Below, piece by piece: positions 2,554-64,000 of a stretch of DNA of 64,000 bases. The stretch is from the NCBI GenBank assembly GCA_027577595.1, contig JANBRJ010000057.1:1-64000 (forward strand). The letters run 5' to 3'. A program made the position numbers and the translations under genes. This DNA is from Coemansia sp. RSA 487. Taxonomy: Eukaryota > Kickxellomycota > Kickxellomycetes > Kickxellales > Kickxellaceae. Positions within the stretch are counted from its first letter, which is position 1; the number at the start of each line of letters is the position of its first letter. The notes under the pieces are model-generated. The model made no database searches. It had not been told where the DNA came from and saw nothing but the letters and a program-made list of their open reading frames with translations.

Positions 2554-4659
2554 TTGTCAAAAAAAAAAAGCGGTCTAGATGGTATAAGAGCCAAAAATGG
2601 AAGAAAAAGATAAAACCAGAGCAAAAGAGGTTTTGTTTTGTTTTTTTTTTTGCCGCCCCGCACCATCATTTGTTAAGGGAAGTTTGTATTGTTGCGAGAC
2701 TGGCATACGGTACCAGCTAAGATAAGAATTTAAGAGAATACTATTATACAAGGAGCTTCCTGTCATCTTCGTCAGGAATTCCTTGCTTTTAAGCAAAACA
2801 AACGATACGTAAATAAGACTACTCTGTGTAAACAAGTGGGCGTATATGATAAACGTTGTAGGGGAGATTGCTTTCTCAGATGTCGTGCTTTATCAACCAT
2901 ATCCAACGTTATCAATAGTCGCAACATGTACGGCAGCAGTAGCAACGGGACTATTTGTTGTCGCAATGACTTGTATCAATTAAATCGGAGGTTGGAACAC
3001 GTTGTCAGTTGACATAGGTTCATCCGTTTCTCCAGGTATTAAGCATTGTGAGTTGGCAGCCGATGCTCCTCCCTCAGCTGTTGCAACAGTTTAAATCGTC
3101 AATACGGGACTGTTTTCCCGTATACTTTATATTCGATCTGATCCCACTACTTAAGCCCTATCATAAAAGCTTGAAGTGCACTAAATTGTTGAAGAGAAGA
3201 GCTTAACTTCTGCTTGGATTTTCTCTTTTTGTCTAAAGCGCATCTTGCCTCTGGATCCAAAGGCACTGAGTTCGATTCTTGAAAAAAATTTTCTTCTGAA
3301 GAGATTTCTATTAATCTAATATACGACTTTATTTAATCACAGTCATGTTTATGCTTGGGTGCTTTAAAATACAGTGACGCAGAAATAAACTAACATCGCT
3401 TCCTATAGCTTTGCTGTTGTTCGTTTGTTTTATCTTATTTACAATTGTTTCCCTTAATATATATTATTCTTATACTTTAACGGATTAACAACATATCACA
3501 TCTAGTAACTCTACCAGCGATGACAGTGACATTCAATTGATTGATTAGTCATGCAATTCTTTCAAACCAGCGTACTTATTCATAATGCTCTATTTTCAAT
3601 ACAGGAATAGCTCTTCCAATTGATCTGCAACACCACCAACAACGAACTAGACAACTTTTACAGTATTATGAATGATAGTGTACATTTCATAACAATACTA
3701 TTATTTGTATTGAAAATATGGTTCCTTTTCTTCATTTTCAATAAAAACACAGCTGTTAGCAACCGTACAACAACAAACTTATGAAATAAGGGAGCATATT
3801 ATATATAATAACCAAAACAATAGGATGTACTCAGAACGAGCTAACCATCGTCACTGTACATGTAGATGGCAGCATGTTCCAATATCTTCCACGATCAAGT
3901 TTAACACAACCTGGGAGTAGGAAATAATGTATTTTGAGGACTATTCCAGAGTAAACGCTGTCATCTTGCGTACACAGCAGAACCATTGCACTTGATACCA
4001 GTGTGGTACTAACAGCAGTAGCATTGGCTGATTATTCTGGCAATACTAACACTGCTAATGCTGATATCCACACTGCTTCCAGTCGAGGCACCGACACTGC
4101 ATGCTATGCATACAACGAACTATACACTGGAGTTCAATAGGAGCCGATCAATAAATACATTAATTAAAAAGAAAAAAGCTATCGAAAAGAAAAGAAAAAA
4201 AGCAGCGCATTGGAAAAAAGTGATAAACGCGATATTCCTGTCTTTTTCCCCTTCCTCAAACAGCCTTTAAAGACTGACGATTTTATATGCTTTTCTTTTC
4301 TTCTGCTCCTTTCTTCACGCCTCTTTCAACCCCCTAAATTCACTCCTTTCTTTCTCTTTTCTTTTTTTTTTGCCGCATCGCTCATTTTCCACTTTTCCCT
4401 CCCAAATTCGCTTGTTTTTATTCTTTTCTTTTCTCTTTTGGCATCACTCGTTTTTTACACTACTTTTTCTTGCTGCTGTCACTGTTGTCACCGTCGCTGT
4501 CGCTGTCTTTGCCTTTACTGTTGCCATCACTGCTTCCATCGCCAACACTGTCACTTTCTGTAGCTGTTCTCTTTAGTTTTGTTTTCACTTCTTTACGCGT
4601 TCATACTAATAATATTATTGTCAACAAAAAACGAAACACATAATGGGAGGTTGTGTTGA
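2554..4659. other. AT-rich intergenic region left of the Fanzor locus
   Basis: About 2.1 kb of AT-rich DNA has no frame that looks coding. It holds the HEM4 promoter (first few hundred bases), homopolymer A/T runs, and a T/C-rich stretch at about 4290-4570 ending in short CTGTCACTGTTGTC-type reiterations. A B-box-like GTTCGATTC occurs near 3270 but no acceptable tRNA fold accompanies it. The right part leads into the inverted repeat at 4645. Confidence 0.55.
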
Positions 4660-4671
4660 TACAAACCTCCC
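4645..4671. repeat. Inverted repeat (GGGAGGTTGT / ACAAACCTCCC) left of the Fanzor gene
   Basis: GGGAGGTTGT is followed after a short loop by ACAAACCTCCC, which can form a stem of about ten pairs with one extra base on one side. Its right arm is part of the sequence repeated directly at 8251. It may mark the left end of a Fanzor-bearing element, but this is inference. Confidence 0.5.
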
Positions 4672-4683
4672 TTGCCGAAAAAA
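4660..4683 (+). repeat. Left copy of a direct repeat bracketing the Fanzor gene
   Basis: ATACAAACCTCCCTT followed by GCCGAAAAAA. The same 15 bases followed by CGAAAAAA recur in the same orientation at 8251-8273, 3.6 kb away, just beyond the Fanzor 3' end. It may be an element end or a target duplication. Confidence 0.55.
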
Positions 4684-5153
4684 CGTGAAAAAAATAAAGT
4701 GGAAATAATGAAAAAACGAAAAGAAAAATTGTGATTAAATCAGGGAACGTACTACAACAGGTGATCGGTGCCTGTTTAGAATAAACAGTGATGGGCTAAA
4801 ATTAGAAAGAAATAAATGTGGGAATCGCAAATATAAGAAAAATAAGAGCATTCATACATTAGAAAAAAGGGTGGGAAGAATCATGCATGATGCTTTTCTT
4901 TTTTATTCTTTTTAATGACAGCACATACAAAACAACTGTCTACAAAGCCAAGCAAACTGTTGATAATGAGTCTTTATGTCAGCAGTGGAGACAAAGGAAC
5001 AGCTATTGTCTCTTTCTTTTACTCTGTAAGTTTTGCCCTACTTTTATTCTATTCTAAATTTAACTACAATATCCAAACCCAATCTATATCAAACACCTAC
5101 CTTTTTTACTCTATTTCTATTATTATTGCACACCTCTTCCTCTACCAAAATGA

Positions 5154-7804
5154 GGCAGTTGGTGTGTGCTAATTAAGGTCCCTATAAGGTGTGTCAAGTG
5201 GGCCAACATGCCAAGACTGGAGAAGTTGGCCAAGAATGTCAACTTTATGACAAAGAATGGATACCTATTTGTGCGATACATATTCACTGAGGAACTGGAG
5301 GTGAACTCACAATTTGATGTGGCCAAATACTTGAACTGGCAGTTCTTCAAGGATGTCACGCTAGTGTGTTGTCATATGCAGGGCTGATTTCCATACAGAT
5401 GGATTGGGGCAACCACTAGTTGTGGACATTGTAATAGTGCACTATATGTAACGGCTCTCTCTGTTACATATAAAAGGGCAACATTCCTTGGACATTGCCT
5501 TTGAGAAAATGGCATGGATTTATTTTTATTTCATTGGTTTTTATGGAAAGGAAATAAAAGATAAAACATCATCTGAATACTCCTTGTTATCCATCCCAGG
5601 TCCATGCTCGATTCGTCACAAAGGAGGTGGTTCTCAGCTTTTCAAGCAGGAGGAGAGGACAGTGCAAGGACAATACAAGGGAAGCTCGAAAGCTTATTGA
5701 CAAGCACTTTGACACCTTTGTACAGCTGATGGGCATTGAGTCTACTGATGAATACTGCATCAACCAGGTTTCCACAGTTGAGGCAAGGAAGATGCTTGTT
5801 GCTTACTTGAACAACATCCGCTTTCAGTTTGGCAGATACATCAACAAGGCCCTTGACTTGCTCCTCAACATCAGCCAGCTTAAGACACAGGTTCAGCAGC
5901 AGCACCCAGCAGTCAGTGGAGATGCACTCAGTGAGCTTTTCAAGCAGGAGATTTTTACACCCAGGGATGAGTTGAGGGCAGCCATCACCAGTGGCAGCTT
6001 TGGCAGGCTTGGTTTACATTGGAGGGCACAGGCTGCTTTGGAGCAGCTGCAGCCAGTCTTGTGCACCTACCCCAGGCATGCTGAATTTGCCAAGGGCAAC
6101 CTCTTTTATGACATCAAGGCCAATCCCTGGAGGCATGTCAAGGCTTTCTTCATGCTTTCCAACTTCTTTGAGACTAGGGGACACAATGATTACCAGTGCT
6201 TCCCAGTCCGCACATCATCTGTTCCTAAGAGCATCACCCTTGATACTTTTGGGCTGTGTGAGAGCATTTTCGATGTAAGGCATAAGAAGGGGCAGGATCA
6301 GCAGGAGTGGGGGAGGATTCTGAGGCTCAAGTCCAAGGCCATTAGGTCACAAGATGGCCTCAAGTTCAAGCACATTGTTCACACTGATGGGGTATCTATT
6401 TCCATTCTGAAAACACCTGATGATTCTTCAGATAAGGGCAAACAGAAAAAGCAGGATTGGGTGGACCCTTCTGACAAGTTTGATTATGTGGAAGACTTGC
6501 CACAAGACAGGCTTGAAGAGGTTGCTAGCAACTGTGTCTACTTTGACCCTGGCCGCAGAGATATGCCCTTTGGCATGTACAGCAGCAGCACAGCTGACAG
6601 CCCAGAGCTTATTCGCTACACTAGCAATCAGAGGAATAGGGAGCTTCACCTGCGCAGACACCAGCAAATCCTTAGCAAAGTGAGGAGGAATTTCCAGGGT
6701 GGTGCGGTGTTGCAGGCAGAGGCACAGCTAGCCACTGTGTCATCCACCACCAGTGCCTCAAGCTTTGTAGAGTATTTGAAAGTTGTTGCAAAAGTCCAGT
6801 CATTATTGACTGACTTCTACAGCAATTACAGAACTCATCACACAAGCCAGTATTGGCCTGCTGGCAAGCCCCTACATCGCAGCCTGCGTTTATCCAGCTA
6901 TCTGCTCCAACAAAAGGTAGATGAGCGTTTTTGCAGCCTGATTAAGAGCAAATGTAAGGCTCAACCAAACCCATTTATTGTTATAGGTGATTGGTCTGCC
7001 ACTCACAATTGTCATCATCAGCCAATCAGGGGAATCGGCCAGCTTCGCATGTTCAGGAATCATGGATTACGCGTTTTCAAGATCAAGGAATTTAATACTT
7101 CCAAACTCTGTCCTAAGTGTGGTAGCCTGCTTGAGAAATTTCGCTGGAGGGTTAATCCTCGCCCGTTTGGCAATGATAAGCACAGGAGCAGCTTAATTTT
7201 GTGCCATGGCTTGTTGATCTGTAAGAGCTCTGATTGCATTAAGCATGCCACTGATTCCACTAATAAGAATCGCCTAAATCCAACCAAGCCCACTTCAGCT
7301 GATTTTGATCCCAATTGGTCCGCAAATGGTCTTATGTGGAATTGCGATATGGCTGCCGTTCTTAATTTTCAGCTCAAGCTTGAAAGCCTTCGTGATCATA
7401 GAGAATTACCGGAACGTTTTTTGCATAGGCTTCCTAAGGCAATTGTACCAAAACGCCCAGACATTTATGCCATTCCTGCCTTAAGCATTACTGATTCTGC
7501 TAATCAGAAAAAACGCAGCCATCGCAGCCTTTACAGGCATAGTAAACGCCAATGCCATCAGGGCACAGCCAAGCAGCAAAAACACCAGCAAATCAACTGC
7601 AGCTGCCATTTTGATGGGTTTAATCGCTCAGCTGCCAGGCACAGCCGCCCATGCCGCACAAGCCGCAAGCAAAGCTCTGCTCATGTTTTTCCTCTTTTAT
7701 TGACTCTCCTGCCCCTCTGCTACATAGGCGTTCTAACTTTGCGACTGCATTTGTTTCTTTTATTTCTTTCATTTCTCCTGATCCTTTGCTGCGTACTCGT
7801 TTGA
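5154..7804 (+). CDS. Fanzor (eukaryotic TnpB-like RNA-guided endonuclease), probably one intron
   Basis: Fanzors are RuvC nucleases that use a guide RNA made from the 3' end of their own locus to cut DNA. The main open frame (5558-7804) carries RuvC-I FDPGRRDMPFGMYS (Asp codon 6545), a RuvC-II-like strand IVIGDWSA followed by KEFNTSK (Glu codon 7088, the shifted glutamate reported for Fanzor1), a zinc finger CPKC...CKSSDC, and RuvC-III WNCDMAAVLNF (Asp codon 7346). A likely first exon (5154-5363: KVPIRCVKWANMPRLEKLAK) resembles the family's N-terminal domain and joins in phase (donor GTGTGT at 5364, acceptor CAG before 5600), giving about 800 aa. No ATG opens this exon, so the true start is unresolved. 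The basic tail may continue in another frame (see 7624-7941). No transposase is nearby. Family call firm, ends provisional. Confidence 0.88.
5443..5472. repeat. Perfect 10-bp inverted repeat in the presumed Fanzor intron
   Basis: TATATGTAAC and GTTACATATA face each other across a 10-base CT-rich loop. The palindrome lies between the two Fanzor exons, within the stretch read as intron. It could be a miniature-element footprint or an RNA hairpin; no function can be assigned. Confidence 0.6.
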
Positions 7805-7941
7805 ATCGCTCAGCCAATTCAGCACTTGTTTCCACTTCAGCTGTTCAGCCGCGTAGGCGTTCCAAGCGCACAGTTGTTCAGGTCGCGCAACAGCAACAAC
7901 AACAGCAGGATCAGTCAGCGTCTAAGCGTCATTGTTTCTAA
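7624..7941 (+). other. Alternative-frame basic tail of the Fanzor gene
   Basis: From 7624 a second frame opens, overlapping the end of the main Fanzor frame, and runs to a stop at 7941. Its last 40 codons are Arg/Lys/Gln-rich (QPRRRSKRTVVQVAQ, then a short Gln run and SASKRHCF), which looks more like a nuclear-localising C-terminus than the leucine-rich residues that close the main frame. A splice or a single frame change between about 7624 and 7804 would use it. Sequence alone does not decide. Confidence 0.4.
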
Positions 7942-8250
7942 CATATCATCTAACAATAATTCCGTTGCTGTTATCGCGACTTCCAACAGGTTTGCCAGTG
8001 GCGTTCTCCCTTCAGGCCGAAAACGCTTAACGGTACTAAAAACTGTGGTTTCATAGGAACTTCCTATGGCATCGGTGAGTATATTTTGTATTTGCCGTTG
8101 TTACTGCTTTTTGCATGTGTATGGTTGAATACTTTTACTAACGATTATTTTGGCTTGGTCTTTTTTCTTTTCTGGTCTTTTATATTGACTGCTTTCTCTC
8201 GCAACCAACGAATAACACTCGACTTTCGCACATCACGAAAACGTTGTCTT
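7942..8250 (+). other. Fanzor 3' flank, candidate guide-RNA (fRNA) region
   Basis: In known Fanzor loci the guide RNA is encoded at the 3' end of the gene, running to the element boundary. The 310 bases between the last possible Fanzor stop and the right direct repeat are the natural place for it. They include the hairpin at 8052-8068 and several T-runs. The RNA itself is inferred from family knowledge, not visible as such. Confidence 0.35.
8052..8068. repeat. Perfect 8-bp hairpin CATAGGAAcTTCCTATG
   Basis: Two 8-base arms are exact reverse complements around a single C, in the noncoding stretch directly after the Fanzor gene. It may form a stem in the putative guide RNA or serve as a binding site. 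Confidence 0.6.
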
Positions 8251-8273
8251 ATACAAACCTCCCTTCGAAAAAA
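8251..8273 (+). repeat. Right copy of the direct repeat bracketing the Fanzor gene
   Basis: ATACAAACCTCCCTT then CGAAAAAA, matching 4660-4683 apart from a two-base gap. It ends about 200 bp before the Pex39-like start codon, consistent with an element inserted in the promoter side of that gene. Confidence 0.55.
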
Positions 8274-10057: not shown

Positions 10058-11617
10058 TTACTTGTACAGTCTCTTTTCGTAAGAGAACAGGTCGTGGACA
10101 CCGCCCTCGATCTGGGCAGCAGCCGAGCGACGCTCAAAGCGAACATCACCGTTGGAAACCATCTCCCAAAGCTTGTGCAGATGCGGCACGCCCATGTCCT
10201 GAAGCGAGTGCTGCAGGCCGGTGATAAGGTACGGGATGAACTGCTTGATCGAGCCCTTGTCGACAACAGCACCCGTGACGCCCTGAGCTACCTTGACCTT
10301 GTCGGACTCTGAGAAGTACCGGGCCTGCGATCCCGAGTTGTCGCTGTCATTGCGCTCCATTGCGTCAAGCGATCCCATACCACGGTACTTCTTCAGCCGC
10401 TTACCGTCAAGGAAAAAGTACTCCCCGGGAGCTTCGGTGGTGCCTGCAAGCAAGCTGCCCATCATGACGCAGGATGCGCCAAGCGCAAGCGCCTTGGCAA
10501 CATGGCCCACATTGCTGATGCCGCCGTCGGCGATGGTCGGGATGCCGAACTTGCGCGCAAACTGCGAGACCTGGAAAACACCGGTGCCCTGGGGCCGGCC
10601 GACAGCCATAACCTCTTGGGTGATGCAAATGGATCCAGATCCCATACCGATGCGCAGACCGTCAGCGCCAGCGGCGATCAGATTGGCGGCCTGGTCACGG
10701 GTAACAACGTTGCCAGCAAGGACATCGACCTTGGAGCCATACGTCTCCTTGATATGCTTGATCATATCGATTTGGAACGACGAGTTGCCCTGGGACGAGT
10801 CGATAACCACGACATCGAGGCCAGCGTCAACCAGCATGGCCAGGCGCTCGCGGTCAGCATTCCGGGTGCCGATGGCGGCGCCCACAAGCAGCTGCTTTGT
10901 CTGCGGGTGCTTGCTGGCCCACGGGTAGTCCCTGTTCTTGAGCAGATCGGAGCGCGCAACAAGCGACACAAGGTGGCCGTGCTCGTCGACAATGGGCAGC
11001 TTGCCCTTCTTGGAGTCGCGCAGGATCTGGTTGGCCTCGGCAAGGTTCACACCGTGCCGCGCAGTCACCACATCAGTAGTCATGATGGTCGACAGGTCGG
11101 TGCTAACGTCCTCGCGGAACCCAATGTCCCGGTTCGTAACGATGCCAACGAGCTTGCCGCCAGCCTTGCCGTCCTCGGTAATCGGAATACCGGTGAACCC
11201 GAGCCGCGTCTTGATGTCGATGACGTCGCGGATCTTGTGCGTGGGGCTCAGCACGATCGGATCGGTGATGAACCCGTTCTCGAATGTCTTGACCCTGCGC
11301 ACCATGGCGGCCTGCTCGTCTGGCGTGCAATTGTTGTGCAGGATGCCGATGCCGCCCAGCAGCGCAAGCGTGATCGCCATCTCCGACTCTGTCACCGTGT
11401 CCATGGGCGACGACGCAAACGGCGTCTTGAGCGTGATGTTGCGCGTGATCTTGGTCTCGAGGCTCACCGCATCCGCTGGGAAGTTGATGTACCCGGGAAG
11501 GATCAGGAAGTCGTTGTACGTCAGACCGCCGGTCCCCTTCAGATCAATCATGTCGCTGGCTGAAAGCCCGTCGCGCCCCATCTTCTCGAGCTCCTGGAAT
11601 ACAAGCTTGGTGTCCAT
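10058..11617 (-). CDS. Inosine-5'-monophosphate dehydrogenase
   Basis: IMPDH oxidises IMP to XMP with NAD+, the rate-limiting step to GMP, in the cytosol. The uninterrupted 519-aa product has the full family layout: N-terminal barrel ([27 protein letters not shown]), a Bateman insert with two CBS repeats (about residues 115-235, including [11 protein letters not shown] and [20 protein letters not shown]), [12 protein letters not shown], the active-site loop [13 protein letters not shown] with the catalytic Cys (near residue 328), the glycine-rich IADGGISN and GSLLAGT phosphate loops, and the C-terminal [15 protein letters not shown] flap. Its product feeds the GMP synthase encoded at 51.6 kb. 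A TATA element lies about 190 bp upstream. Confidence 0.97.
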
Positions 11618-35391: not shown

Positions 35392-36627
35392 TCAAGAGGT
35401 TCCATGAAAGAGCTTTTGGATCTCAGTCTTTAGATGCGTGATAAGCGGACATGTACCCAACTCGACTCTTGTGTTGCGGCGGTCAGTCAAGTACATTGTG
35501 TCGATGGGCAAAAGCTGGTACGTGCTGTTGATGATGAAAGCGCCGCTCCACCGCCCGCTGAGCGCATCGTTGAGGTTTGGTCCAGCAAACGAGACTTGGA
35601 TGCCGTCTCTTTTGCAAATCGACCACACGGCGTCGAGCATCTCGCCGCGGTGGATGATGTCCAGCGACGCGCATACCAGGTGGTAGTTGTAGAACTTTGT
35701 CCTGGCCACCGTCATCCGGCCATCCGCATCCGGGTATGTTGCGTTGGCATCGCTGGACGAGTTGCTGCGATGCACCGAAGGCGGAAACGACTCCTCCTTT
35801 TGGGGCACAGGTGCTAGCGACGATGCTGGTGGGGGCATGAAGCGGGTGGCAAAGAAGTTGGACAGCAAGCCTTCGCTCAGACGCTGCGTGGTTGGATGCA
35901 GCAACACAACATCCGACATGGGCGGAGTGATCAGCCGTGTCAAGCCCAACGGGTCCGCCGATAGATGGAAGTCGCGCAAAAACGATTCGGGTCTCAATCC
36001 CTTGCACACACGCACTTGGCACGTGCGTGTGTCGGAAAACGGGAATGCGTAAAGCGACAAGGACAACGAGAACGGGCGCACCGACACTTGCGCAACAACA
36101 AACAGCTCCTCGGAAAGCATCGAGGGGTCGGCGTCCTGCGCCTCTGCGACCTCCATGTATCTTGTAAACGCGCGGTCGTAGAGCATGCGGATGCGGGGCG
36201 ACCAGAACCCTATGTTGCTGTACTTGGCCAGCTCTTCGCCGCCATAGGCGCTGACGTTCTGTGCCATATGCGTGGCCGCCACGTGCACGCACCCAGTGAA
36301 CTGGTCAAACGGGAACAGAGACTTGCCCTCTATCGTGCGCCCACACACCTGGTACACTTGCCGCCCGTCGCTCAGCGATGGCCGCTGCTGCATCTCGTAT
36401 GCCACGACCTCGTTGAATATGATTGTGCGCTTCACCTGCCCCCCGCCATTGTCCATCGACAGGTGCAGCTGGTCCACTGTCGGGATGTCGTCTATCCGTA
36501 TCGTGCCCTCAAGGTCGCTCTCGTCCGCTGCGCTCACTACCACGGACTTTGAGCTGAACTGGACAGATGGGACATCGCCGTACTGGAACAGTGTTAATAT
36601 CCCGGGATTGTTGCTCGCCATTGTCAT
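35392..36627 (-). CDS. Class-IV aminotransferase-fold protein, catalytic lysine lost (411 aa)
   Basis: This protein is a diverged paralogue of the neighbour at 37072-38109; both have the fold of D-amino-acid/branched-chain aminotransferases and aminodeoxychorismate lyase. Shared landmarks: ITPPMSDVVLLHPTTQRLSE, EGLLSNFFATRF and a C-terminal CKRDGIQVSF with LPIDTMYL. The aligned segment PESFLRDF replaces the neighbour's PEAKNIQW, so the PLP-binding lysine is Phe here, and the HLQRL phosphate-binding box is also gone (FDQFTGCVHVAATHM). A serine-rich insert sits near residue 285. It is therefore probably not a PLP enzyme and may have a structural or binding role. The start is ATG at 36627. Confidence 0.75.
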   Translation of the reverse strand: MTMASNNPGILTLFQYGDVPSVQFSSKSVVVSAADESDLEGTIRIDDIPTVDQLHLSMDNGGGQVKRTIIFNEVVAYEMQQRPSLSDGRQVYQVCGRTIEGKSLFPFDQFTGCVHVAATHMAQNVSAYGGEELAKYSNIGFWSPRIRMLYDRAFTRYMEVAEAQDADPSMLSEELFVVAQVSVRPFSLSLSLYAFPFSDTRTCQVRVCKGLRPESFLRDFHLSADPLGLTRLITPPMSDVVLLHPTTQRLSEGLLSNFFATRFMPPPASSLAPVPQKEESFPPSVHRSNSSSDANATYPDADGRMTVARTKFYNYHLVCASLDIIHRGEMLDAVWSICKRDGIQVSFAGPNLNDALSGRWSGAFIINSTYQLLPIDTMYLTDRRNTRVELGTCPLITHLKTEIQKLFHGTS

Positions 36628-37071: not shown

Positions 37072-38109
37072 TCACATTTTGGTCGAGTTTTCAGCTGCCA
37101 TGTTTTTAACGGATTCTCTCAGATGGGCAACAAGCGGATCGCTGGCATCCAAGCGGTGCTCAGCCACTGCATCCCCATGGCCGTAGACGATTGTCTCGAT
37201 TGGCAGGACCCAGCGCGACGTCGATGACACAAAGGCGCCGTTCCAGCCGCCAAAATCCACGCTTGGGTCATAGACCACTTGGATCCCATCGCGGTCGCAG
37301 ATACGCAGCACCAGCTTCATCACCGTGCCCAAAAGCACGCAGTCCCTGGGCGCCGACACCAGTTGGTAGTTCAGGTACTCTGGCGCCCTGGTGGCACTGC
37401 TGCTGGAGATCCTCCTTGTTGCAAAGAAATTGGACGAAATGCCCTCATAGAACCGCTCACCCTCAGAACACCTATCTGTCAGGACCACCTCATTGACCGG
37501 CGGCGCAATCATGGGCTCAAGGCTTTCACGCTCATGTACCCACTGGATATTCTTGGCCTCCGGCGTATCGCGCCTAACCCCAGTGACAAACCGCACCCAG
37601 CACGCAACCTGCTTATGTGTGTTTAGGCAAGTGAAATGCAGCCGCGCTTCCCTGGTGCCAGCAAGCACCGTAATCTTCGCCTCGTCATCAGGACATTCGG
37701 CACTGAAAGCGTCGACGCCGCGCCGAATCAGTGGGCAAAGGATCCGCCGCCAGTACTCGGGGTCGTCCCGCCGCGCCATGTCCTTGGGCAACACCACGCG
37801 GTGCGAGTTGCCTAGCCGCTGCAAATGGTCGTCAAAGAGAAACACCCGTTTCCCTCCGCACACCGTGCGCATCGCTGTGTATATCCCCGTTTCACTGGAT
37901 AGCATGAAATCGCGCGCACTCATCTTGGTCTTCTGTTCTGTCACGGTACCAGTCTCATAGTCGTAGTCCACAACCAAAGATGGCTTGCTGTTGCTTTTAT
38001 TGGCCTCAACGCTGTTGGTTGCGCTCATCGTGGTGCGCTGCTGTAGCAGATGCTTGATAATGCCTTGTTTGCCCTGGCCCACTAACTGCGTCCGCAAATG
38101 CGTAAACAT
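37072..38109 (-). CDS. Class-IV aminotransferase-like PLP enzyme (345 aa)
   Basis: The fold family comprises D-amino-acid transaminase, branched-chain transaminase and aminodeoxychorismate lyase, all PLP enzymes. Seen: SSETGIYTAMRTVCGGKRVF, DDHLQRLGNS (Arg98, PLP-phosphate binding), PEAKNIQWVHER (Lys186, candidate Schiff-base lysine), VVLTDRCSEGERFYEGISSN (Glu222) and the C-terminal LGTVMKLVLRICDRDGIQV. Spacing from Arg to Lys (88) and Lys to Glu (36) fits the family. It most resembles the uncharacterised plant/fungal subgroup; the substrate is unknown. The first 27 residues are basic and hydroxylated and might be a mitochondrial presequence, or translation may begin at Met28. Confidence 0.8.
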   Translation of the reverse strand: MFTHLRTQLVGQGKQGIIKHLLQQRTTMSATNSVEANKSNSKPSLVVDYDYETGTVTEQKTKMSARDFMLSSETGIYTAMRTVCGGKRVFLFDDHLQRLGNSHRVVLPKDMARRDDPEYWRRILCPLIRRGVDAFSAECPDDEAKITVLAGTREARLHFTCLNTHKQVACWVRFVTGVRRDTPEAKNIQWVHERESLEPMIAPPVNEVVLTDRCSEGERFYEGISSNFFATRRISSSSATRAPEYLNYQLVSAPRDCVLLGTVMKLVLRICDRDGIQVVYDPSVDFGGWNGAFVSSTSRWVLPIETIVYGHGDAVAEHRLDASDPLVAHLRESVKNMAAENSTKM

Positions 38110-51199: not shown

Positions 51200-51569
51200 G
51201 ATAACAGCAGGCCTTGACATTCTTATCACTGATTCATCGGCTTTGAACGAATAAACTCTTGGATATACCGAGCCGAGTCGATTCACTATATGATTTTCAA
51301 GCTTTGACTGTGTGTTTGACTCATTAAAAAAAGTAAACGCCAAAAAAATTTTTTTTTCAGAGGTACACGGAAGAATTGGTCTGGACTATAAATTGGGAGC
51401 ATCTCGGAGGACGCTTCCGATTCCATGCTTTGTTGGGCCTTTTCTCTTTGTATTTTTATACCCCTACGCTGTAGTCACCTCTATTGTTTCGTCTAGCTTT
51501 AGCGCTCTGTTTCTTTTTTTTCCCACAGTATTTATTGGCAGTAATCGCTACCTACAGAAAAACAGAACC
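51200..51569 (+). other. Intergenic/leader of the GMP synthase gene
   Basis: A 370-bp gap between frataxin and GMP synthase. The right half is pyrimidine-rich with an acceptor-like TTTTTTTTCAG near 51350-51360 and TTTTATACC near 51455; the leader may contain an intron. No separate gene. Confidence 0.5.
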
Positions 51570-53183
51570 ATGGCTCCCACCGATGTCACGGCCCAGGTCG
51601 CCAACATGTACGACACCGTCCTTATCTTGGACTTTGGATCGCAGTACTCGCATCTGATCACCCGCCGCGTCCGCGAGGCAGGCGTCTACTGCGAGCTTCT
51701 TCCATGCACCCAGAAGATTGCCGAGCTCAAGTTCAAGCCCAAGGGTATTATCCTGTCCGGTAGCCCGTTCTCGATCACCGATGATGGTGCTCCCCACGTC
51801 GACCCAGAGATCTTCAACCTCGGCGTTCCGATCCTTGGCATCTGCTATGGTCTCCAGGAGATTGCGCGCAATCTCGGGGGTGAGACCAGCCTTGCCGTCA
51901 AGCGCGAGTACGGGTTTGCTGAGCTCAACCTCGATCCCCAGGCTGACCACCATTCGCACAAGCTTTTCCAGGACATCCTGTCACCTACAAACGTGTGGAT
52001 GAGCCACGGAGACCATCTCGAGAAGCCTCCAAAGGATTTTGTTGTTATCGGATCCACAACCACGAGCGAGTACGCCGCTGTTGCGCACACCACGCTCCCG
52101 ATCTACGGTATCCAGTTCCACCCCGAGGTCACCCACAGCATTGACGGCGCCCTTGTTCTGCGCAACTTTGTCGTTGGGATCTGCGGATGCGAGGCAAACT
52201 GGACCATGTCCTCGTTCATCGACAAGGAACTCGAGCGCATTCGTACACTCGTCGGCCCCACAGGCTCTGTTATCGGCGCTGTTTCTGGCGGTGTTGACTC
52301 GACAGTCGCTGCGGTGCTGATGAAGCGTGCAATTGGCGATCGCTTCCACGCTGTGCTTGTCGATAATGGTGTGATGCGTCTTAACGAGTGCGAACAGGTC
52401 AAGAAGACGCTTGCCGATAATCTTGGCATTAACCTGACGGTTGCTGATGCCTCCGATCTGTTCCTTGGTCGTCTCAAAGGCGTCACCGATCCCGAGAAGA
52501 AGCGCAAGATCATTGGCAACACGTTTATCGAGGTGTTTGAAGCCGAGTCGCACAAGATCGACGAGATTTCGCGCCAGAATGGCCAGGGTGCAATCGAATG
52601 GCTCCTCCAGGGCACGCTTTATCCTGATGTCATCGAGAGCATCTCGTTCAAGGGTCCGTCTGCCACCATCAAGTCGCACCACAACGTCGGTGGTCTGCTC
52701 GAGGACATGCGTCTCAAGCTCATTGAGCCCCTGCGCGAGCTCTTCAAGGACGAGGTGCGTGCTCTTGGTGCTCTTCTCGATATCCACGAGGATCTGATCT
52801 GGCGCCACCCGTTCCCAGGACCAGGAATTGCCATCCGCGTCCTCGGCGAGGTCACGCCCTCCCAGGTTGAGATTGCGCGCCGTGCCGACCATATCTACAT
52901 CGACGAGATTAAGAAGGCTGGGCTCTACCGCCAGATCTCACAGGCATACGCTGCTCTGCTTCCCGTCCGCTCTGTCGGTGTCATGGGTGACCAGCGCACT
53001 TACGAGCAGGTTATTGCCCTGCGTGCTGTTGAAACTAAGGATTTCATGACTGCCGACTGGTTCCCCATGCCCGTCGAGGTCCTTAAGCGCATCAGCAATC
53101 GCATAATCAATGAGGTGCACGGTGTTAACCGCGTTCTTTACGATGTTAGTTCCAAGCCTCCCAGCACTATCGAGTTTGAGTAA
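51570..53183 (+). CDS. GUA1: GMP synthase (glutamine-hydrolysing)
   Basis: Converts XMP to GMP using ATP and glutamine, the step after IMP dehydrogenase. The 537-aa product starts at [20 protein letters not shown]. Domain 1 is a class-I glutamine amidotransferase (residues about 15-205): [20 protein letters not shown], the oxyanion/nucleophile GICYGLQ, and the [10 protein letters not shown] His-Glu pair. Domain 2 is the ATP pyrophosphatase with P-loop [12 protein letters not shown] (near residue 240). Domain 3 is the dimerisation domain with [13 protein letters not shown] and a terminus [13 protein letters not shown]. The frame is open for 86 codons upstream, but that part reads as untranslated leader. 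Assignment is certain. Confidence 0.97.
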
Positions 53184-54257: not shown

Positions 54258-56940
54258 TCATGAATTTTCTTTTTCTGTTTTTGGATTATGTAAACAAACT
54301 CCAAATGTGAACGCTGCATTAGTCATGTATTGGAACATTATTAATTTAGCCATATTTGGACATGTCCATTATATCTCTGGGAGCTCAAACAATCGACATA
54401 AAAGAATGTAACCACACTGAACTACTGTTGGGACCACTGTACATGCTTATGAAGGATGTTTTTTCTTTGAAGTGGGGTATATGCTGGTAGCTGTTCAGGC
54501 ATTAATTAATTCCTTTTATGGCCATGTATATTGCAAAGATGCCGAGAAAGAGTACATTCCTTTGGAAAATACCTGTTTACCAATACCAAATAAGCCTCTT
54601 TAAATGTATAGCGACTGAAGAAAAAGGTAACTTGATTTTTCTGCAAAGTTGGAAAAATGTGAAGGAGAGTGGTGATGGAAATGTTATTGTGCATAAATGC
54701 TTGAAATTTTCTTTTCTTTTCCACAGTACAAAATGACCATGGACAGCAAAGTTCAAAACTCTCACAAGGTCCAGAAACACATGTCTTCTATTCGCTATGC
54801 ATACGTTAAATTCAGATATATAGGCTGCATGCCAGCTTTTTGGTAAGCGCTATCAGCCAGTGAAATCCAAAAAACATCACCAGTGGCTGGGCGCTTGGTA
54901 ATGGCTGCAGATTCAAGTTGTACGTTATTGTTCTAGTGTCTTTTGCGTTTGCAAAATTTTGGCAAATAGACCTGTTAGCAGCCAGGGGCAAGACTTGAAA
55001 CCGCAAGGGTAAAAATAGACATATTATTTTGCTAATGTTTGTTATTGTCTCTTAAAATTTTTGCTTTGAGAATTGTTATAACTGTGACCTGCATTTGTAG
55101 CGCACTCATGCATATATTGCTTTCCCACGTGTGCGTACGAGTAAATGGACGAGACGGAGTAAAAGTTTTATAGTACATATTCGGTATATCCTCGCAGCCA
55201 AATTCGATTTGGAATTGGGAGTGACGCTAATGCATAGTCACTTATTTATCTCCTCAGCCAAATGTCCACATAGCGCTTGTTGGCACATTGTTAAAACGGC
55301 GTATGTCGTTATTGCACGTACGCTTGCCAAAGCAAAAAAAAGCGAAGCACCACATGGTTGATTACAACTATTACACATGGTGCTGAGCAAAAGAGGCTTA
55401 TTATGTATTCTCAACCCAGCAAAGCTCCATTTTCGGTCCTTTCTCGGACTCCAGAGTATCTCTGGGCTGATTATTAATTTTCAGCTGACTACGCTTTAGG
55501 TTTACAATTTACAATTGTGCCATATCCACTCATCTGCAAACTGTTATTGTTTACTTTAAAATTTGACAATTAGCTGTGACGCTTCTGTTTTGATACACTG
55601 AGCTTTGTGCGTAATCAGTGCTTTTCTATTGAGCAACATAACGCAACGCAACGCAACGCAACGCAAAAGCAAAAAGCAAAAAGCAGAAAGCAAAATATCC
55701 ACGACAGCATGCCATGCATTTATGCGTGAATCTGACTCTTGTTCCTTTACTTAAATTATTTAGCACAGGTTTTGCTGCTGTTCTTGCTGACGTTGGGGGA
55801 GGGAAGCAAACAGAACAAGTGCACGCATAAATGGCTGTGTTGGACATGTGCAGAGTAATGAAGCCTGCTGGGCAGTGTGTGTCTGCATACTCGAGATACA
55901 TGTAAAAGTTTCGCATGTGTGTTGACTGTGCTATTGCAGAAATAAATTTCAAAGTCCGGACAGAAAAGTGGCACTCATTAGAACAGTCAAAATGGAGAGA
56001 GGTAGCAAGGAACCGAAAAGATGGCGCAGCATTTTGGGTTGCAATGCCCTTCTTCCAATTTTACAACGCAGCCACGGAAGCCTGGCAGAGTGGAAAAGGG
56101 AAAGGGTTCTTACTATGAAAGTGTCAAAAACAATGGTGCGAAATATAAGCAGGCAGCAAAAATGCCCGCATTAGTGCCAGAAGCAACCTCGGCAACAACA
56201 ACAAAACAACAACAGCAGCTTTTGCCGCCGACGACAATAACAAAAAGACATACTTTCATATCAAAACTATGATAGTACAAGTAACAGGGCTCAAAGCGCA
56301 AGTTCTATGTTCAAAGAAATCGTGTTTTGCATGCTTGGATGTTGGCTGAGTGCATACCTGTTGTGTAGAAAAGCAAATGCCAAATCTGGGGGTTTGTTTG
56401 CGTGAACAATTGTCTGGTGAATGCAAATTCATTGGACATACACATACATAAACACACATGTACGTGTGTTTATTGTCAACCGAAGGTCTTTTTTCGCCTG
56501 CTGAAAAATGGCAATAAAGGCGCACCCAAAAAACTTCCCCATCCCTTTGACTGCGCCAGAATAGCCCGCAATACATAAAAAAGAGACACGCGAGAGGGGT
56601 TGGACAGCAGTTGTAAAAACCCGGATCCAGCCATGTAGCCAAAATCCGCTTACACGCCCGGGCACAGTTAACAGCGCCGCCCGTCCTGCAGAGTGCCAGA
56701 GCTGTATTTTTGGCTGCATCGCACTTTGCCTCCAGCCTCCTGGGCCATGCTTTGTGTGAAAATAAAGCAGCGTTATATGCCAGAGTTATATCCCCTCCTG
56801 GACATGGAGTCTGTTATTCCGCAGATCGCTTTTATATAAAAACAACTAGTAACCTCCACAACATCGTCTCTGTTCTCCGTTCCTTCTTTCTCTTTTTACA
56901 ATTTTCTTTGCACCTTACTCCATTTTATTCTGATTTGATC
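54258..56940. other. Intergenic region (2.7 kb), no gene recognised
   Basis: Frames on both strands are short. A pentamer run ACGCA x5 (55641-55665) is followed by GCAAAAA-type units. The right end holds the first zinc-finger gene's promoter, with TATATAAAA at about 56833. Confidence 0.55.
55641..55665. repeat. (ACGCA)5 tandem repeat
   Basis: Five perfect ACGCA pentamers, running into a purine-rich AGCAAAA series. Simple-sequence DNA without visible function. Confidence 0.85.
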
Positions 56941-57699
56941 ATGGACAACCGCAGGGCCTCTCTACCGCAGCTGAGCGCAGTAAACCCCGAAACTTGGATG
57001 CGTAATGCAGGATTCATTTACGAGATCGCCGATTTGTTTACTCCGTCTTTGTCTTTGTCGTCGTCGTCGTCAACCCCATCGTCATCGCCGTTGTCATTGC
57101 CATCGGCAGCGCCAGCAGTGTCAGTTGCAAAGGATGACGCTACGAATCCCGGCTCATCCTCCGCCTCGGATGAAGCCGATCACAAGTCCGAAAAAGGCAC
57201 CCTGGCGAAGCGTACGCGGTACCAGTGCGAACTTTGCTTCAAGTGTTTCACTCGGCCCTCTTCGTTAGCGACGCATATGCACACGCACACAGGAGAAAAG
57301 CCGCACCAATGCACATTTCCAGGCTGTGGAAAGAGGTTTTCGGTACGCAGTAACCTGCGCCGGCATTCGAAGCTCCATGAGGACCCGATGCCGCGTAACC
57401 ACCGCAAAGGCAATCACAAGAACTTCTTCAACACGGGCTATCATCCATATGCCCAACATATGGTCCATTTTCCAGCGCTTCCACCACACATGCTTCCTCC
57501 AATGTTCCCTTGCCAGATAGCCGCTGGCGACTATTCGCTGTTCCCTGCCCACAGAATGATGCCATTGCCACCATCGCTGTTTCCTCCAAGCTATATAGTT
57601 GGCCCCATTGCAAACACAACACCGCAGATAACACAGCAGCAGCAATCTCAGCCCCGCTTGCTTCTACCACCGCTGCCATCCAATGTTGATTTATTGTGA
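56941..57699 (+). CDS. Two-finger C2H2 zinc-finger protein A (252 aa)
   Basis: Starts MDNRRASLPQLSAVNPETWM. A conserved block PETWMRNAGFIYEIADLFTP (shared with the paralogue at 60-61 kb) is followed by a serine-rich spacer and two C2H2 fingers: YQCELCFKCFTRPSSLATHM, with HTHTGEKPH linker, and CTFPGCGKRFSVRSNLRRHS. The pairing resembles fungal Msn2-like or Krüppel-type factors. Downstream, FFNTGYHPYAQHMVHFPALP and Pro/Leu-rich repeats suggest an effector region. A TATATAAAA box precedes the start by about 105 bp. Compared with its paralogue the N-terminus is about 90 residues shorter, the NRRAS motif being joined almost directly to PETW. Probably a nuclear transcription factor. Confidence 0.88.
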   Translation: MDNRRASLPQLSAVNPETWMRNAGFIYEIADLFTPSLSLSSSSSTPSSSPLSLPSAAPAVSVAKDDATNPGSSSASDEADHKSEKGTLAKRTRYQCELCFKCFTRPSSLATHMHTHTGEKPHQCTFPGCGKRFSVRSNLRRHSKLHEDPMPRNHRKGNHKNFFNTGYHPYAQHMVHFPALPPHMLPPMFPCQIAAGDYSLFPAHRMMPLPPSLFPPSYIVGPIANTTPQITQQQQSQPRLLLPPLPSNVDLL

Positions 57700-59932: not shown

Positions 59933-60234
59933 CCGGCCCAAGTGCTACGGAGTTGCTCAGCAAAATCAACACAACGTTGTCGTTTATTCCTTTTCCAGCC
60001 AAATGCTTGAAAAAGGGAGTTGTCACCTAGAATAATCCTTGGCGGTGTCTTTTTCGGTGGAGCTATTTGCTGATTGAAAGCCAAGGAAGGCTTCCTATTT
60101 CCAGAAATATTTAATCCCTTTATGGCGACGCATCATCGTGTGCGCTTTGTTTCCCGTTCCTGAGAATACGCCATTATGCTATGCACCAAATTCCCTGCTC
60201 AGTTTCATCTCCCCCATTTTACTCCATTGAAAAT

Positions 60235-61407
60235 ATGACTGATAGTCTAATAGCTAGTCTTACTTGCCTGCAATACAATGAGTTGCTCTGTGCGCTTGAC
60301 AAACTTGATTCTGTAGAGTTCGCTGCAATGTATAACCAGATACGCAGAAACAGCAGCACTAACGAGGGTGCTGTTAACCACAGTTCGATGCAAGCACTAA
60401 ATCCTGGTGTTGGGATTGGTGTGTCCAATGCAAACCGTCGCGCGTCCATGCCGGTTCATGGAGGCGCTGGCAACCTCAATCCACCTCTGGTCGCTACTGA
60501 TTCACATATGGCTTCTCTGCCCAACCTCGATTGCTCTCAAGTTCCGAACTTTGACAAGCTCTTCTTCAACCAGGATCTGCCACAACCTGACGCAGCGAGC
60601 CCCGAGACTTGGCTGCGCAATGCAGGATTTATTTCCAATATCGCCGATTTTTTTACTCCGCCCTCATCATCATCGTCGTCGTCATCATCATCGTCATCAT
60701 CGTCATCCCCGTCGTCATCGCCACTGGCAGTCCCAGCAATTCCAGCTGCCAAGGATGACGGTGCGAGCCTTGAAACAGCCTTCACTTCAGATGGAGCTGA
60801 TCATGAGGCCGATCAAGGAACCCCGGCTAAGCGTACGAGGTACCAGTGTGAGCTTTGCCTCAAGTGCTTCACTCGCCCCTCTTCACTAGCAACGCACATG
60901 CACACACATACGGGAGAAAAGCCGCACCAATGCGTATTCCCAGGGTGCGAAAAGAGGTTTTCGGTGCTCAGCAATCTGCGCCGGCATTCAAAGCTCCATG
61001 AGGATCCAATGCCGCGCAACCACCGCAAGGGGCATCTCAAGCGCTTCTTCAACATGGGCTATCATCCATATGCCCAACATATGGTCCATTTTCCAGCACT
61101 CCCACCACACATACTGCCTCCCGCACACCATCACATTGGATTCGGTGCAGTGCCAATGTTTCCTTGCCAGATAGCCGCTGGCGACCATTCGCTGTTTAAT
61201 GTCCATGGAATGACACAGCTGCCACCACTGCTGTTTCCTCCTAGCCATATAGTTGGCCCCTTTCCAAGCCCAATGCCACAGCCACCACCATCGGCTGCTA
61301 CGTCGCAGGTAACGCAGCAACAGCAGAGTCAGCTTAGCTTGTTTCTATCGCAGCCGCCGTTTGATATGCCTTTTCCTGTGGCTGGAAACGCTATTCAACG
61401 TGGTTAA
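60235..61407 (+). CDS. Two-finger C2H2 zinc-finger protein B (390 aa)
   Basis: Paralogue of the gene at 56.9 kb. The ATG at 60235 is preferred because the preceding bases resemble the untranslated leader of the paralogue; an in-frame ATG at 60181 would add 18 residues. A 120-residue N-terminal part (MTDSLIASLTCLQYNELLCA...) includes NRRASMP. The block PETWLRNAGFISNIADFFTP is shared, followed by a serine run of TCA/TCG codons (60666-60720). Fingers: YQCELCLKCFTRPSSLATHM and CVFPGCEKRFSVLSNLRRHS. The tail again carries FFNMGYHPYAQHMVHFPALP. The first finger is nearly identical in both copies, so DNA targets probably overlap. Confidence 0.88.
   Translation: MTDSLIASLTCLQYNELLCALDKLDSVEFAAMYNQIRRNSSTNEGAVNHSSMQALNPGVGIGVSNANRRASMPVHGGAGNLNPPLVATDSHMASLPNLDCSQVPNFDKLFFNQDLPQPDAASPETWLRNAGFISNIADFFTPPSSSSSSSSSSSSSSSPSSSPLAVPAIPAAKDDGASLETAFTSDGADHEADQGTPAKRTRYQCELCLKCFTRPSSLATHMHTHTGEKPHQCVFPGCEKRFSVLSNLRRHSKLHEDPMPRNHRKGHLKRFFNMGYHPYAQHMVHFPALPPHILPPAHHHIGFGAVPMFPCQIAAGDHSLFNVHGMTQLPPLLFPPSHIVGPFPSPMPQPPPSAATSQVTQQQQSQLSLFLSQPPFDMPFPVAGNAIQRG
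60666..60720. repeat. TCA/TCG serine-codon microsatellite in zinc-finger gene B
   Basis: Mostly TCATCG units encoding a run of about eighteen serines, interrupted by one Pro. The paralogue has a shorter, more mixed run at the same place. Confidence 0.85.
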
Positions 61408-63574: not shown

Positions 63575-64000
63575 CTAGCAATAGCTCCGCGGAAGATTGT
63601 GGCTATTCTTCCTTTGTTTGATTAGACGACGCCTTTTGCTGGCACGGCGCCTCTTGCTGGAATGACATCTCTTGTGGGACTGCGCAGAAGCGCTGGCAGG
63701 CCTTTTCGTACCCCTGGCGGGGTTTGCAGCCTTCTTCAGAGACAGAAGACGAGTACTACGCTCAAAACGCTTCGGTATCTTCCCTGTTTCGCGCAGACTA
63801 GCAAGAATGTGCCTGAAATTCAGCACAGCAGCAACATCTCTGTTCCAAAAACGAGTAGCAGGCTTCCCGGCAGAAGAGGCTGTCTCACACTTGTTTGCTA
63901 CATACTCCTGACATTGTTTGTTGGTGCACTCTAGGAGACCATGCCATTTAACAAGTGGATGCTTCCTCCTTTGGAAGGGCCTGGGGTTAGGAACACGCTG
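63575..64000 (-). CDS. Second Fanzor gene, C-terminal part, cut by window edge
   Basis: The frame enters from the right edge and ends at 63575. Visible are NPRPFQRRKHPLVKWHGLLE, the zinc-finger end CTNKQC, and RuvC-III FWNRDVAAVLNFRHILASLR with its Asp, followed by ETGKIPKRFERS. This is the canonical Fanzor1 C-terminus; the same order (NPRPF, HGLL-C, WN-D-AAVLNF) occurs in the Fanzor at 5-8 kb, but identity outside the motifs is low, so the two are different lineages rather than recent copies. The C-terminal 60 residues are highly basic (KRCHSSKRRRASKRRRLIKQ), a good nuclear signal. No stop interrupts the visible part. The N-terminal half, including RuvC-I and II, is outside the window. Confidence 0.88.
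   Translation of the reverse strand, partial: QRVPNPRPFQRRKHPLVKWHGLLECTNKQCQEYVANKCETASSAGKPATRFWNRDVAAVLNFRHILASLRETGKIPKRFERSTRLLSLKKAANPARGTKRPASASAQSHKRCHSSKRRRASKRRRLIKQRKNSHNLPRSYC

Follow-up and report, generated by a model that had tools for sequence, protein, structure and literature searches.

Fanzor proteins, the eukaryotic relatives of TnpB and Cas12, are RNA-guided DNA-cutting enzymes of fungi and other eukaryotes. The locus studied here, in a stretch of 64,000 nucleotides from Coemansia (the window), raises the question of whether it carries an intact enzyme of this kind and, if so, whether that enzyme belongs to a mobile element, to the host, or to an unusual system of its own. 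An initial annotation had proposed a Fanzor gene at 5154-7941 with a complete RuvC core, and had read it as a stand-alone, possibly domesticated or self-mobilising copy. Our analysis makes it very probable that the locus holds a spliced, apparently intact fungal Fanzor1, most likely an omegaRNA-guided cutter that was once the cargo of a non-autonomous DNA transposon.

The Fanzor1 frame and its catalytic core

The main coding frame runs from 5600 through 734 sense codons to a stop at 7804, far exceeding what chance produces, given that 20 Markov-simulated 64-kb windows yielded no stop-free run longer than 251 codons. We compared the translation of 5627-7804 with 177,635 distinct PDB sequences using phmmer, and the only matches with E < 0.001 were three Fanzor1 sequences, namely PpFz1 of Parasitella parasitica (E 2.8e-72), SpuFz1 (E 2.8e-28), and GtFz1 of Guillardia theta (E 1.6e-5). 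The proposed identity is thus confirmed by a significant match whose top entry is a solved Fanzor1 and not an unrelated RuvC family. One further sequence, a baseplate protein, appeared among matches with E up to 1 (E 0.4) and was taken as chance. The main frame gave sub-threshold scores with the general family models, reaching 20.1 bits against a cut-off of 26.3 for Pfam Cas12f1-like_TNB, with a further sub-threshold Pfam match at E 0.13, and 14 bits for NCBIfam guided_TnpB, whose cut-off is 100; membership in that prokaryotic TnpB family was accordingly rejected. The assignment to Fanzor1, in which the class is set by the closest PDB relatives, and the intact RuvC signature are well supported. 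The features of this frame are as follows.

5600..7804, + strand: Fanzor1 main coding frame (putative REC/WED part, RuvC, TNB zinc finger), by phmmer of 5627-7804
6545..6547, + strand: RuvC-I catalytic Asp, in the DPG of FDPGRRD, by motif scan; aligns to DPGRRD of PpFz1
7088..7090, + strand: RuvC-II alternative Glu, in EFNTSKLCPKC, by a match to E......C..C; aligns to DEFRTSSFCPKC of PpFz1
7109..7237, + strand: Cys4 zinc finger of the TNB domain, CX2C plus CX4C (CPKC at 7109-7120, CKSSDC at 7220-7237)
7346..7348, + strand: RuvC-III catalytic Asp, in WNCDMAAVLNF, by motif scan; aligns to WNRD of PpFz1 and of a second Fanzor in the window

RuvC-I, the shifted glutamate, the Cys4 zinc finger, and RuvC-III had been reported to share one long frame, and all four lie in the 5600-7804 frame, where the core contains no stop or frameshift and retains its catalytic and zinc-finger residues. 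The span of 5154-7941 originally given for the gene fared less well; it mixes three frames, although the core motifs do share the main one. The alternative Glu at 7088 stands exactly six residues ahead of the first zinc-finger Cys, with the Cys codons at 7109 and 7118 for the first pair and at 7220 and 7235 for the second (residues 541 and 546). A DPG motif combined with a Glu placed six residues ahead of the zinc finger is described as the Fanzor state, which is common to the IS607 TnpB clade termed pro-Fanzors (PMC10711439). By analogy with the solved relatives, the single RuvC site composed of Asp 6545, Glu 7088, and Asp 7346 would cut both DNA strands. Superposition of this triad on the solved structures was not possible because the predicted structure was too poor, with a mean pLDDT of 35.3 for the AlphaFold model built from a two-row alignment.

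Relatives were also sought with short peptides in other sequence collections. A protein scan of viral contigs with six peptides gave four pattern matches and no confirmed relative, a two-row alignment scan of viral contigs with two peptides gave 47 matches and no relative, and a scan of prokaryote genomes with two peptides gave 23 matches and no relative; as these scans used so few short peptides, the absence of relatives carries little weight. A literature search found no publication naming Fanzor together with Kickxellomycotina or Mucoromycota.

Probable exon structure and the two ends of the gene

Upstream of the main frame, a short open stretch may represent the Fanzor1 N-terminal region and is separated from the frame by a candidate intron.

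5178..5363, + strand: candidate upstream exon, Fanzor1 N-terminal region (frame open 5154-5387; aligns to PpFz1 529-582)
5364..5599, + strand: putative intron of 236 nt, GTGTGT...CCATCCCAG, phase 0, GT-AG, by splice-site and phase analysis

The gene is probably spliced from 5363 to 5600. Residues 529-582 of PpFz1 directly precede the region to which the main frame aligns, so that the exons stand in the correct order, and a codon-usage scan agrees with the frame of the upstream exon at 5180-5300. Joining the exon to the main frame gives a PpFz1 match of 258.6 bits versus 247.3 bits, with an alignment that crosses the junction, the joined protein scored at 258.6 bits having also been trimmed at its C terminus. 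Taken alone, the exon matches PpFz1 chain 529-582 weakly (E 0.61), and an unrelated chain scored E 0.072. A candidate start is the ATG at 5208, or else translation would begin in a still earlier exon, possibly one that ends at the GTAAGT donor at 5026.

The true C terminus is uncertain past about 7540. Beyond RuvC-III, the main frame encodes a basic stretch followed by a hydrophobic tail over T-rich DNA (about 7690-7804) that is unlikely to be the genuine end of the protein. The third frame is open from 7651 to 7941 and holds a basic, nuclear localization signal (NLS)-like stretch, RRRSKR, and the codon-usage scan, which does not fix the C terminus, slightly favors a different frame at about 7500-7650. 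Such a switch might point to an intron, loss of the stop, or a frameshift.

That the frame appears to end wrongly counts against our preferred reading and is what would be expected of a recently dying Fanzor1, in which the core survives while the stop at the C-terminal end is gone or the frame has shifted, leaving no working enzyme. The hydrophobic extension, the displaced basic stretch, the codon usage near the 3' end, and an omegaRNA that is not recognizable by folding all point in this direction. We consider such decay rather unlikely, however, given that the core, free of stops and shifts, preserves its catalytic and zinc-finger residues, and that a candidate spliced end at 7542-7813 would also bring the third-frame basic stretch into frame. 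Moreover, because similarity to PpFz1 ends shortly past RuvC-III, close to the end of the PpFz1 chain, the doubtful 3' part lies outside the known fold. This copy is probably a working but ordinary member of its family.

Genomic setting, flanking repeats, and the search for a guide RNA

The gene lies among long, unbroken, fungal-type genes, in a window whose G+C content varies from 40 to 57% in 2-kb windows. It is flanked by HEM4 on one side (start 2553, − strand) and by a KPWE-domain gene (taken from 8470, + strand), TMA16, and IMPDH on the other. We searched 28 other ORFs of the window against Pfam, and 18 of them have a family, including HEM4, KPWE domain, TMA16, IMPDH, Brix, Sec66, carboxypeptidase, frataxin, GMP synthase, and Rtf2; the other 10 match no family, and some among the last nine scanned are probably not genes. 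None of these 28 ORFs matched a transposase, integrase, or reverse transcriptase family at E up to 0.001, and to that extent the earlier remark that no transposase lies beside the gene is upheld.

Other arrangements in the window were observed in passing. Two similar C2H2 zinc-finger genes (56710-57699 and 60181-61407, both + strand) lie about 2.5 kb apart, apparently as a tandem duplication. The adjoining ORFs at 35392-36627 and 37072-38109 (both − strand) look related, as a SNFFATR stretch occurs in both, and Pfam reports Aminotran_4 for the second only. IMP dehydrogenase (10058-11617, − strand) and GMP synthase (51312-53183, + strand), which catalyze consecutive steps of GMP synthesis, are both encoded within the same 64-kb window.

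A Fanzor1 fragment at the far edge of the window, about 56 kb from the first gene, bears on the history of the locus.

63578..64000, − strand: second, diverged Fanzor1, C-terminal 141 residues, cut by the window end, by tblastn

It matches the first Fanzor at E 7e-9 (tblastn; 37% identity over 106 columns) and PpFz1 at E 5.9e-13. Its RuvC-III reads WNRD, its C-terminal tail is strongly basic, and its second zinc-finger Cys pair is identical to that of the first Fanzor. The presence of a second Fanzor1 in the window fits a multicopy family.

The step from a stand-alone gene to a domesticated or self-mobilising one does not follow from the sequence. Fanzor1 elements that lack a transposase have been described from several fungi (PMC3627910, PMC10432273), and standing alone is therefore no evidence of domestication; the absence of a transposase does not separate these readings, and the locus, which had been put forward as an unusual system, is unexceptional among such elements. 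A domesticated host gene that has lost mobility and serves a cellular function through RNA-guided cleavage would suit the gene-dense setting, the 28 scanned ORFs free of transposase families, and the lack of clear transposon ends. Those published elements weigh against it, and the second, diverged Fanzor1 and the repeat that brackets the first gene fit a mobile history equally well, so we regard domestication as improbable. A more specific version, in which the two diverged Fanzor1 genes are resident, non-mobile, and kept for the fungus's own RNA-guided cutting, one of them being PpFz1-like without the cyclophilin-binding insertion, seems to us very improbable. The role of Fanzor for host or transposon was itself called unknown in a 2023 report (PMC10432273).

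The bracketing repeat consists of two direct copies.

4650..4683, + strand: left copy of a 34-bp gapped direct repeat (core ATACAAACCTCCCTT at 4659), 88% identical to 8243-8273
8243..8273, + strand: right copy of the direct repeat; possible right end, target duplication, or promoter motif

The two copies match at E 0.001 within the window, and the left one overlaps a GGGAGGTT...AACCTCCC hairpin. The stretch at 2675-2689 is an inverted 14/15 match to the repeat core. The longer motif ATACAAAC[CT]TCCCTT was observed at three sites only, 2675-2689 (− strand), 4659-4673 (+ strand), and 8251-8265 (+ strand).

These repeats could mark the ends of a complete, still mobile non-autonomous element bounded by ACAAACCTCC repeats. 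In one version it would span 4650-8273, the direct repeat then being either a terminal repeat or an imperfect target duplication, and in the other 2675-8265, with short inverted ends; in either form we consider this a possible reading and hold it only tentatively. In its favor, the core ACAAAC[CT]TCC occurs in the 64 kb only at 2687 (− strand), 4661 (+ strand), and 8253 (+ strand), all around the Fanzor gene, and an exact direct 15-mer common to both flanks arose in just 8 of 2000 simulated flank pairs, although the repeat statistics were computed post hoc, after the repeat had been noticed. The inverted copy at 2675-2689 is weak, because the 15-nt core with up to three mismatches has three matches in the window against a shuffle mean of 1.68, and 22 of 100 shuffles reach at least three. 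Apart from the repeat, the words of at least six bases common to both repeat sites are, among the matches listed, A-rich 6- and 7-mers, a comparison that leaves room for a duplication of 2-5 bp, and no target duplication is visible at 2675/8265. In addition, every copy of the motif lies upstream of and is oriented toward a gene (HEM4, Fanzor, and the KPWE gene), which puts a promoter motif on an equal footing with an element end. The direct repeat itself may also be what is left of an old target duplication. Around the gene we found no long terminal inverted repeat accompanied by a clear target-site duplication, which counts against our preferred reading of a former transposon cargo as well. 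On that reading, the gene would have come in with a non-autonomous DNA transposon, the ends of which are decayed or not recognizable from a single copy.

As a working Fanzor1, the protein would be expected to bind an omegaRNA made from the DNA 3' of its own gene and, in complex with it, to recognize a short TAM adjoining a guide-matched sequence. The 3' flank (7942-8264) does not fold significantly better than its shuffles (z -1.21), and nine shorter stretches of the first Fanzor gene gave z from -1.48 to 1.59, the best fold tried in the 3' flank being the non-significant one at 7950-8099 (z -1.48). Folds no better than shuffles, and an omegaRNA thus not recognized, speak against the preferred reading; yet because the omegaRNA of PpFz1 is small, at 75 nt (PMC11423790), a non-significant 3' fold neither shows nor excludes one. 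The omegaRNAs of solved Fanzor1 proteins measure 75-150 nt. An Rfam scan of the window at gathering scores gave no match, and a tRNA scan was also empty. The sole strong fold is a 100-nt stretch upstream of the gene (4574-4673, z -3.14) that holds the hairpin of the left repeat. Within the 3' flank, at 8050-8100 (+ strand), we observed the short palindromic sequence CATAGGAA-C-TTCCTATG, after which an 11-bp hairpin is predicted. At the second Fanzor, three segments located past or around the stop codon fold no better than shuffles (z -0.66 to -0.96), and a comparison of the 3' flanking DNA of both genes gave nothing above chance (best E 0.14). A GC-rich hairpin lies just past the second gene's stop codon.

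Comparison with known Fanzor and TnpB systems

The published fungal elements provide the closest parallels for a former transposon cargo. ROr-4, PBl-3, and MCi-4, from Rhizopus, Phycomyces, and Mucor, are described as MuDR-like Fanzor1 elements without a transposase gene, whose terminal inverted repeats are MuDR-like and are accompanied by 9-bp duplications (PMC3627910). None of these end features was recognized near the Coemansia gene, where they may have decayed; no MuDR end sequence entered the comparison. In the Spu-1 element, as reported, a transposase was not found inside the 30-nt inverted repeats, and the mapped omegaRNA spans the right one (PMC10432273). No counterpart of these repeats or of this RNA was found at the Coemansia locus, whereas SpuFz1 of Spizellomyces punctatus (PDB 8GKH) does share a homologous core with the protein (the E 2.8e-28 match).

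At the protein level, the RuvC and zinc-finger core is held in common with bacterial TnpB, and the DPG and moved Glu represent the Fanzor/pro-Fanzor state. The RuvC-III residue is Asp, in contrast to the Asn of GtFz1. GtFz1, SpuFz1, and PpFz1 are all reported to cut DNA, the first two explicitly in an RNA-guided manner, and a TAM screen preceded the in vitro cleavage reported for PpFz1 (PMC11423790). On its own, the Coemansia Fanzor1 is a candidate nuclease that does not alter this overall picture.

PpFz1 (PDB 9CF0-9CF3) gives the best match, one that covers most of the protein, with the same catalytic positions and zinc finger, and the two differ in a longer spacing between zinc finger and RuvC-III in Coemansia and in a RuvC insertion of about 100 residues that is present in PpFz1 and missing here, where the query passes from 413 to 417 while the PpFz1 chain passes from 996 to 1096. 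By size and place rather than by residue-by-residue matching, we take the missing stretch to be the FRI domain. The FRI domain of PpFz1 binds cyclophilin (PMC11423790). An apparently intact gene so near to the solved PpFz1, minus its extra domain, would offer a useful comparison for the role of the insertion.
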